From Gammaproteobacteria bacterium (GTDB taxonomy: Bacteria > Pseudomonadota > Gammaproteobacteria > Eutrophobiales > Eutrophobiaceae), in NCBI GenBank assembly GCA_004297165.1, contig SCUJ01000006.1:1584045-1648044 (forward strand): 64,000 nucleotides of DNA, read 5' to 3'. The translations under genes and the position numbers were made by a program. Within the stretch, counting starts at the first letter, position 1. The number at the start of each line of letters is the position of its first letter. Shown in pieces: positions 37,900-40,861 of the stretch. Under the pieces are notes generated by a model that had not been told where the DNA came from, did not search any database, and worked only from the letters and a program-made list of their open reading frames with translations.

Positions 37900-38373
37900 A
37901 TGAGCAAGAAGAAACCCGGCGCCGTCTCGAACACCATCGTCCTCAATAAAAAGGCGGGGCACGATTTCTTCATCGAGGAGCGCCTGGAGGCTGGACTCGT
38001 TCTGGAGGGTTGGGAGGCCAAGAGCCTGCGCGCCGGCAAGGTGCAGATCCGGGACAGCTACATCCTGCTGAAGGACGGCGAGGCCTTTCTCTTCGGCGCG
38101 CTCATTACCCCGCTGCCCACGGCCTCGACCCACATTCATCCCGACTCCATGCGCAACCGCAAGCTGCTGCTGCATCAGCGTGAATTGAGCCGGCTCATCG
38201 GCGCCGTCGAACGCAAGGGTTACACCGTTGTGCCCACCGCCATGTACTGGAAGAAGGGCCGCGCCAAACTCGAGATCGGGCTCGCCAAGGGCAAGCAAAG
38301 CCATGACAAGCGGCAGGCGGAGAAAGAACGGGACTGGCAGCGGGAGAAACAGCGGCTGTTGAAGATACATTAA
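37900..38373 (+). CDS. smpB: SsrA-binding protein SmpB
   Basis: [54 protein letters not shown]. Confidence 0.98.
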
Positions 38374-38472: not shown

Positions 38473-39103
38473 GGGGGCGCATTGGTTTCGACGTGGGTCA
38501 TGAAACCGGAAGGGCATGCCGAGGGGCAGAGCACCTCGTAAATCCAGCTGCAAAAATATAGTTGCCAACGACGACAACTACGCACTCGCTGCCTAAACCG
38601 CAGTAGATTGCCGTCTGCCTGACGTGTGCTTGTACGCTCAGATCCAGGCGTCGACCCATACAAGATCGCGATGAAGTCTGTCCGGGACGGATTCGTTAAA
38701 ACCTTACGGAATCGCTCGTTGTCTTTCCTGCCGCTCGGATAGCAACGGGTTAAACTCAAAGAGTCGGCTACGCATGTAGAACTGAAGGCCGAAGGCTTGC
38801 GGACGCGGGTTCGATCAGTAAAAGGTCGCCTTTGCCCGTAAGGGTAAAGTGAAAAACGGGGCTCACATCGGTGAAACCTACTGTCTGAAGACTAGGGCAA
38901 CACCGAGGGGTAAGCAGAGGGCCAACCTCAGACTTGCCCTGTAGAGACTCATAGATCCACTGACCAGCATTAAGGCGAGTGGATACTAGGATTCACCGGC
39001 GAACATCCAGGTGAATAATACGCCCCGCATCCTGTAGACAGGATGAAGGTATAGTCCAGCCCGATTCGAAAGAACCGGAACAGCTGTCCCGCCGCCTCCA
39101 CCA
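38473..39103 (+). ncRNA. ssrA: tmRNA (ssrA), interrupted by a group I intron; mature RNA ~360 nt
   Basis: 5' GGGGGCGCATTGGTTTCGACGTGG; tag GCC AAC GAC GAC AAC TAC GCA CTC GCT GCC TAA = ANDDNYALAA; 3' TCCCGCCGCCTCCACCA; GGGGGCG pairs with CGCCTCC; immediately downstream of smpB. Confidence 0.95.
38816..39086 (+). mobile_element. Group I intron in the T-loop of ssrA
   Basis: Exons join as GCGGG-TTCGAT|T-CCCGC, giving a normal 5-bp T-stem and 7-nt loop; 5' exon ends in T and intron ends in G (39086); P7-type GTAGAGACT...GAAGGTATAGTCC. Confidence 0.85.
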
Positions 39104-39107
39104 ATAA

Positions 39108-39148
39108 CTGCCGGGTTGCAAGGCCCGGCAGACCTTTTTGGGTTTTTT
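39108..39148 (+). terminator. Rho-independent terminator after ssrA
   Basis: CTGCCGGG-ttgcaagg-CCCGGCAG followed by ACCTTTTTGGGTTTTTT. Confidence 0.8.
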
Positions 39149-39153
39149 CCTGA

Positions 39154-39597
39154 GTGGAGATAAGGATGTCTCGTTACAAGAAAACCTGTTGCTTGACGGA
39201 AGCCCAGGCCGCTTATATTGCCGGGTTAATGGATGGTGAAGGAACGATTACACTTACAAAAAGACACCGTAATGAACACCGTCAAATCGTGGTCTCCATC
39301 AGTAATAACGAAAAGTGTCTGCTCGACTACGTTATATCAGTAGCTGGAATTGGAGTAATCTCCAAGAAATCCGATATGCGGTCGAAAAATATCAACTATT
39401 CCTACACAGTCACCAATCGGCAGGCATTAGAATTATTGTCGCAGATCAATCCGTATCTGATCGGCTATAAAAAGGAACGTGCGAATTATGTGCTGAAGCA
39501 CTATCTGGCTTTAACCCCGAGGAACGGAAAATATTCCAGAGAGCTATTAGAACGGAGAACTGATTTTATTGATTCGTTTTTCAGAATCCGGCCTTGA
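39154..39597 (+). CDS. LAGLIDADG family homing endonuclease (free-standing, downstream of ssrA); start GTG 39154 or ATG 39166
   Basis: AAYIAGLMDGEGTITLTKRHRNEHRQIVVSISNNEKCLLDYV matches the LAGLIDADG motif (IAGLMDGEG). Confidence 0.9.
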   Translation: MEIRMSRYKKTCCLTEAQAAYIAGLMDGEGTITLTKRHRNEHRQIVVSISNNEKCLLDYVISVAGIGVISKKSDMRSKNINYSYTVTNRQALELLSQINPYLIGYKKERANYVLKHYLALTPRNGKYSRELLERRTDFIDSFFRIRP

Positions 39598-39617
39598 TAC
39601 AGGAAGACTTGGAATCC

Positions 39618-39643
39618 GTGTTTGACTCCCGCCGTCCTCACCA
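39618..39643 (+). pseudogene. Diverged second copy of the ssrA 3' end
   Basis: TTTGACTCCCGCCGTCCTCACCA versus TTCGATTCCCGCCGCCTCCACCA in the spliced functional gene (18 of 23 positions match by eye). Confidence 0.75.
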
Positions 39644-39709
39644 ATCCAGGGTTTACTTCAGACCAGAACAAGCCAAGTCAGGCCGGAGAAACAAAGGTTT
39701 CAGACGTGA

Positions 39710-40861
39710 CTACTCCGACAGATCGTTCAACTCGTAACTGGTGCTGCGCCCGCCCGCCTCGGTTTTCCGCAGCACACGCCGCGTAAGCAAATCGTTGATG
39801 TCACGCAACGCAGTATCCGGTGAACACTTGACGATGGTTGCCCATTTGCTGCTGGTGAGCTTCCCCTCGAAGCCATCAAGCAGCTTGTTGAGCAACTTCA
39901 CCTGCCGCTCGTTCAGCGGCATCTCCGCCCAGCGCTGCCAGAAACGCGCCTTGGTCAACACGACGTTGAGTGTGTGCTGAGCCTGATCGACCGCGCGATG
40001 GAGGGCGTCGAGGAACCATGCAAACCACTCGGTGACATCCATCGATCGCTTCTGGGTCCGTTCCAGGATGTCGTAGTAGGCCTTGCGCTCCCGCTGGATC
40101 TGCGCCGACATACTGTAGAAACGCCGGGGACTGCCATCGGCGCGCGCCAGCAGCAAATCGCCGATAGCCCGCGCGATACGGCCATTGCCATCGTCGAACG
40201 GGTGGACGGTGACGAACCACAGATGACCGAGCCCGGCCTTGAGCAGCGGCGGTTCGTTCGATGCGCTATTCACCCAATCGAGGAACCGGCTAATTTCGGC
40301 CTCCAGACGGGCGGCGGGCGGGGCCTCAAAATGCACGCGCTGGCGGCCGATCGGGCCAGACACCACTTGCATCGTACCGCTGGCGTCGTCGCGCCAGCCA
40401 CCGACCTTGATCCTGGAGAGACCGGAGTAGCCGGTGTGAAACAGCGCGGCATGCCAGCCTAGCAGACGCTCCCGCGAGACCGGCGCATGACAGTTGGCGG
40501 TGGCGTCGAGCACCATTTCGACCACGCCTTCGACATGCCGATCCACCGGCGCGAGAGCGCCGATATCCACGCCCAGCCTGCGGGCGATGGACGAACGCAC
40601 GGATTCGACATCGAGCTGCTCACCCTCGATCTCGCTGGTCTTGACCACGTCCTCGGTGAGTGCGGCGAGGCTTGCCTGATCGCGCAGCGCCATGCCCACA
40701 TCAGCCAGACGCCCTATCAAGAGGCCCTGGTCGCGACTGACCTCGGCCATGGGTCCGGCCAGGGCCGCTAGGTCGAAGCGCCAGTTCGGCCAGTCATCAG
40801 CCTGCCAGATGTATTTATAATCGCCGCTATTCATGCGGAGATTATGGGTCTCAATCTCCAC
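39710..40861 (-). CDS. Fic family protein with N-terminal inhibitory motif and C-terminal winged-helix region (start may be ATG 40834)
   Basis: HPFDDGNGRIARAIGDLLL = HPFx[D/E]GN[G/K]R; TSEIEGE = (S/T)xxxE(G/N); C-terminal DTALRDINDLLTRRVLRKTEAGGRSTSYEL. Confidence 0.95.
   Translation of the reverse strand: MEIETHNLRMNSGDYKYIWQADDWPNWRFDLAALAGPMAEVSRDQGLLIGRLADVGMALRDQASLAALTEDVVKTSEIEGEQLDVESVRSSIARRLGVDIGALAPVDRHVEGVVEMVLDATANCHAPVSRERLLGWHAALFHTGYSGLSRIKVGGWRDDASGTMQVVSGPIGRQRVHFEAPPAARLEAEISRFLDWVNSASNEPPLLKAGLGHLWFVTVHPFDDGNGRIARAIGDLLLARADGSPRRFYSMSAQIQRERKAYYDILERTQKRSMDVTEWFAWFLDALHRAVDQAQHTLNVVLTKARFWQRWAEMPLNERQVKLLNKLLDGFEGKLTSSKWATIVKCSPDTALRDINDLLTRRVLRKTEAGGRSTSYELNDLSE

Follow-up and report, generated by a model that had tools for sequence, protein, structure and literature searches.

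The window, a 64,000-nucleotide stretch of gammaproteobacterial DNA, carries on its + strand the tmRNA gene ssrA, immediately 3' of smpB (37900..38373; PF01668, E 3.6e-56), which encodes the protein partner of tmRNA. The complete tmRNA gene occupies 38473-39103 and is split in the T-loop by a group I intron. This had been proposed in the initial annotation, every computable detail of which was upheld by the covariance models for tmRNA (RF00023) and group I introns (RF00028), by the boundaries and by covariation. The 5' exon (38473..38815) ends with GCGGGTTCGAT in the T-loop, the intron takes up 271 nt (38816..39086) and the 3' exon (39087..39103) is TCCCGCCGCCTCCACCA; on sequence reading these boundaries were exact as first given. 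RF00023 matched 38481-38817 with 167 bits, and the tag reading frame (38564..38596) specifies ANDDNYALAA followed by a stop. GGGGGCG (38473-38479) pairs with CGCCTCC (39093-39099) in the acceptor stem, after which comes ACCA, and joining of the exons gives the 5-bp T-stem (GCGGG/CCCGC) and 7-nt loop (TTCGATT) that had been described. The features by which an intron-form tmRNA gene is recognised (covariance-model match, tag frame, acceptor stem and a T-arm after exon joining) were all found. An intrinsic terminator with a 10-pair stem and a T run follows at 39108..39131. ARAGORN reported no tmRNA in the window, so default annotation would miss ssrA, as had been suspected, and no second tmRNA above cut-off was found in the window's own genome.

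RF00028 matched 38789-39078 with an E value of 7e-8, though at 39.2 bits, under the Rfam cut-off of 50. We wrote the P1, P2, P3, P4, P5, P6, P7, P7.1, P7.2, P8 and P9 structure from the window sequence and aligned 36 homologous introns together with their exon ends. Across these homologues 89.3% of the cells of the named P1-P9 structure were paired, and in 42 of its 75 pairs both positions had changed. The covariation score was 0.464, against 0.174 +/- 0.007 for shuffled alignments and at most 0.144 with the partners slid. P3, P2, P7.2 and P9 were the best-supported helices, while P1, P4 and P7 hardly varied. The pairing first noted as P7-like is P7 itself, GACT (38946-38949) with AGTC (39053-39056), and, being invariant, it is backed by conservation and not by covariation. 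The P3-P9 core, whose absence the initial annotation had named as one ground for refutation, was present; P3 and P7 form the pseudoknot, and P1 contains a U-G pair. The intron follows a U and its last base is G, and the junctions TTCGAU^...G^UCCCGC were shared by the window and all 43 other tabulated loci. From its sequence and conserved structure we conclude that it is a genuine group I intron, predicted to be self-splicing by its class. P7.1/P7.2 presumably put it near subgroup IA.

Most tmRNA introns occur in Bacillota. Group I introns in tmRNA were already known, as had been remarked at the outset: a 2025 survey gives 883 unique intron-form genes from 21 phyla, mostly with the intron at T-loop position 7 (PMC11915505), so the window intron by itself is an ordinary member. 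It shares with those genes, as far as the accessible sources describe them (Williams 2002; PMC11915505), the insertion at T-loop position 7, after U, the terminal G and a short spliced 3' exon. According to the same survey, an endonuclease gene is present in only 36 of the 883 tmRNA introns (4.1%) but in 54% of archaeal rRNA group I introns; endonucleases were counted inside the intron only, and the accessible part of the text mentions none beyond the 3' end.

The more interesting part of the locus is not the intron but the gene past the CCA. Because the initial annotation ended at the CCA, it overlooked a LAGLIDADG homing endonuclease gene (39166..39597, + strand, 143 aa) that starts 62 nt downstream, after the tmRNA terminator, and has its own ribosome-binding site. 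The protein matched PF00961 (30 bits, cut-off 23.1) and also PF14528. In its motif, AGLMDGEG, the D and the final G were invariant among relatives and the E was present in more than 90% of them, so that the catalytic acidic motif DGEG is conserved. There is one motif only, and a homodimer is therefore predicted. The best solved match was I-MsoI (3fd2, sequence E 3e-9), with I-CreI also near, and an AlphaFold2 model (37-row alignment, pLDDT 92.5) showed the alpha-beta-beta-alpha-beta-beta-alpha fold and matched I-CreI (1n3e) with a TM score of 0.76. I-MsoI and I-CreI, which are homodimeric enzymes of algal 23S rRNA introns, share the single motif, a length of about 145-165 aa and the fold, at about 18-27% identity. 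They differ in sitting inside their own introns and targeting 23S rRNA genes, whereas the window enzyme sits outside. In the enzyme pairs that were unsaturated and hence measurable, dN/dS was 0.07-0.20, so the enzymes are functional now or were until recently.

We searched 84,980 genomes for relatives with an alignment query, going by nothing but protein sequence; a single-sequence scan of the genome contigs with the window protein gave no matches. The alignment query found 50 relatives, 48 of them at a tmRNA gene. Forty-two follow an intron-bearing tmRNA and share its strand, so that the endonuclease gene is outside the intron and adjoins the intron-bearing target gene. One is downstream of an intron-bearing tmRNA in reverse orientation, one is downstream of an intronless tmRNA (L136), two are tail-to-tail with intronless tmRNAs (L097, L134) and two, from Elusimicrobia, are inside the intron (L129, L130). 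The remaining two received no position class: L128 begins at a contig end, and no tmRNA was found in the stretch examined of the Parcubacteria relative L103. The distance from CCA to match was 46-185 nt (median 77), and in 40 of the 42 loci a terminator stands between the two genes. The inverted gene, in a metagenome-assembled genome (MAG) of the window's family (G005, JACORW01), has a truncated N-terminus.

Among 369 genomes of the class, 14 had enzyme and intron, two the enzyme only, four the intron only and 349 neither (Fisher p 5e-20), a count that leaves out G362 (weak match) and G071 (contig end). It is scarcely credible, given this co-occurrence and the location of all but two of the 50 relatives at tmRNA genes, that the window holds an ordinary ORF-less intron with an unrelated gene next to it, even though tmRNA introns usually lack an endonuclease of their own (PMC11915505); the linkage already contradicts that reading and rules out a chance neighbour. 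A phylum-wide draw of 399 genomes yielded the window alone, so the element is sporadic, and a plasmid search gave no match. Many of the loci come from MAGs. Six cultured isolates have the same arrangement (Methylophaga sulfidovorans, Thioalkalivibrio sulfidiphilus, two Thiocapsa, Parahaliea and Chromatocurvus), and metagenome misbinning therefore cannot explain the pattern; the one Chloroflexota member, which groups with Gammaproteobacteria (L106), may be misbinned. In the open-access literature we found no outboard tmRNA endonuclease, and the arrangement has apparently not been described before.

Relatives of the enzyme were also found at phage tmRNA genes. In two viral contigs (L143, L144) the enzyme gene is tail-to-tail with an intronless tmRNA, in a third (L142) it lies inside the tmRNA intron on the opposite strand, and in two more (L139, L140) it adjoins a weak tmRNA match. 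Sphingobium phage Lacusarx and contig L138 have permuted tmRNAs, whose genes carry the T-arm at their 5' end, and here the enzyme gene is upstream. The T-arm was the near neighbour of the enzyme gene in every phage case and in both gene topologies. More distant phage LAGLIDADG relatives (CcrRogue, Navo, 023Pt_psg01) were none of them at tmRNA genes, and since these sit elsewhere, the tmRNA link is specific to this enzyme clade. We consider it rather likely that this is a collaborative homing system in a cellular housekeeping RNA gene, with a LAGLIDADG family that is dedicated to the tmRNA T-arm, has outboard and in-intron members, serves at least two intron types and ranges over several bacterial phyla and tmRNA-carrying phages.

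Two further observations were made on the phage contigs. In L145 an RF00028 group I intron (1815-2534) surrounds an endonuclease relative, with no tmRNA in the stretch examined. Pistol ribozymes lie about 2 kb or less from the endonuclease gene in L139 (4103-4171), L140 (4106-4174) and L142 (3342-3409).

We then compared the histories of intron and enzyme. The introns fall into two subtypes, with 0.24 differences per site within and 0.45 between them, while enzyme distances were alike within (0.42) and between (0.44) intron subtypes. When mapped onto the enzyme tree, intron subtype switches six times, and in at least two cases the branch is supported; the window itself combines a subtype B intron with an enzyme whose closest relatives are at subtype A loci. 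It follows that intron and enzyme reassort, as expected for separate partners with one target, and a fixed intron-plus-enzyme composite is unsupported, because the two subtypes do not track the enzyme tree. It is most unlikely that the protein is a maturase that aids folding and splicing of the intron and has lost, or never had, a role in mobility. Some LAGLIDADG proteins are maturases, and the enzyme is linked to the intron, but enzymes are exchanged between two intron types, two members of the window's family (G030, G036) have an intron-bearing tmRNA without the enzyme, other enzymes stand beside intronless tmRNAs and the catalytic DGEG is conserved.

Enzyme distances correlated slightly better with tmRNA (0.51) than with the intron (0.37). 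This, together with the outboard genes beside intronless tmRNAs in bacteria and phages, is what would be expected if the endonuclease were a free-standing mobile gene homing into the 3' flank of ssrA, with the intron as a hotspot passenger that is unneeded for self-protection. We consider such an origin unlikely, because about 90% of the linked bacterial loci have the intron, compared with about 5% in the class draw, and because the position of the enzyme tracks the T-arm, the site of the intron, in both gene topologies. The state of the enzyme genes also speaks against it. The enzyme gene was broken in all three sense loci where an intronless tmRNA has a consensus, unprotected T-arm (G116, G050, L136), as compared with 11 of 46 loci with the intron (one-sided p 0.02). 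For this count L069 was scored as broken (two matched parts in different frames) and L123 as intact (full-length match), and L124 and L135 were omitted as contig ends. Dead enzymes at intronless loci would be as expected if the intron protects the chromosome, three cases being few. Intact-looking enzyme genes beside intronless tmRNAs were found in two Parcubacteria and one phage lineage, all with T-arms that deviate from the consensus; these deviations may or may not represent resistance.

Exon differences near the T-arm exist between the window and its intronless congener G001, whose 5' exon is 94% identical. We draw from them no conclusion about exon co-conversion from G001, since the state found in the window is also that of the family consensus.

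Behind the endonuclease gene the window contains a degenerate second ssrA 3' end, from T-loop to CCA (39617..39645, + strand), found by local alignment with a score of 31, whereas 240 control stretches reached 26 at most. Trailing repeats were found in four of the 44 loci tested, perfect over 26 nt in L092 and L126, which belong to one genus, and over 17 nt in L106. With so few loci, the repeat is ruled out as a general feature of the cassette and was kept out of the main claim. Such repeats may represent either native 3' ends that an insertion displaced or att sites surviving from islands. If the trailing repeat were an attR, the endonuclease gene could be cargo of a genomic island integrated at the 3' end of ssrA, or what is left of one. 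In favour of this, ssrA is a well-known island site (PMC11915505), and direct repeats come after the perfect repeats in L092 and L126. We regard this reading as very unlikely all the same: the repeat was not found in about 40 of the 44 loci, no integrase-like gene was seen within 15 kb in L176, and it is the endonuclease gene alone that is conserved, 46-185 nt from tmRNA in many families and phyla. The ssrA genomic islands (Williams 2003, as cited in PMC11915505) share the locus and, in a few cases here, the trailing ssrA 3'-end repeat; in contrast to them, no integrase and no island-sized element were seen in the loci inspected here.

Several features of the 3' flank are recorded here in their own right. 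In L092 (2460-2610) and L126 (2434-2600) the direct repeats behind the trailing repeat, TTTGGTCAACTTTT, are conserved and resemble recombinase arm sites; no integrase-like gene was seen near them, nor among the long ORFs inspected in L176 and L177. On contig C29 of G050 the ssrA 3' end, the terminator and the broken endonuclease gene are duplicated (L049, from about 857; L050, from about 824), with the copies about 8.4 kb apart, as though an element lies between them. In the window the endonuclease gene is followed by a Fic/DUF4172 gene on the opposite strand (39710-40861), and L048 has at this place an apparent HipBA-type pair, by ORF reading only. Since related loci carry other genes there, the ssrA 3' flank is variable.

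The computations yielded conserved linkage, a separate transcription unit, intact enzyme genes under selection, partner exchange and the T-arm as constant neighbour. Judged from these sequence comparisons, collaborative homing is the best explanation of an intron with an outboard endonuclease, and quite probably the right one. The intron, to go by its structure, would splice itself out and leave a functional tmRNA. The endonuclease would be expressed separately, from the gene that follows the terminator, and would cut intronless ssrA in or beside the T-arm, where the T-stem offers a natural inverted repeat that would suit a homodimeric LAGLIDADG enzyme. In the resident copy the intron would interrupt this target and so protect the host chromosome. 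Repair of the break from the donor would then copy the intron and co-convert the endonuclease gene 62 nt past the 3' exon, as co-conversion over about 80-600 bp beyond the break would bring the enzyme gene along. The trailing ssrA 3'-end repeat, in the few loci that have it, may act as a right homology arm.

Collaborative homing has been described for F-CphI and psbA in cyanophage S-PM2 (PMC6083498, PMC3984707) and also in T3/T7-like phages and ICP1 (PMC10448857). As in those cases, a conserved gene carries an ORF-less group I intron, and next to this gene stands that of a free-standing endonuclease, which is presumed to cut the insertion site. Those cases concern phage protein genes and other endonuclease families, whereas here the gene encodes a cellular housekeeping RNA, the enzyme is of the LAGLIDADG type, the hosts are many bacterial phyla as well as phages, and cleavage is a prediction.

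If this reading is true, the outboard endonuclease explains why so few endonucleases are found inside tmRNA introns and by what means these introns move. The spread of tmRNA introns that have no endonuclease inside would then be accounted for, at least in these groups; surveys that end at the CCA cannot detect an outboard gene. Known collaborative homing is that of phages, and its origin has been called unclear (PMC10448857). That question would become testable with a single family whose members occur outboard, inside introns, beside intronless genes and in phages. Should the reading hold, the family would also supply naturally occurring meganucleases that target a gene present in nearly all bacteria.
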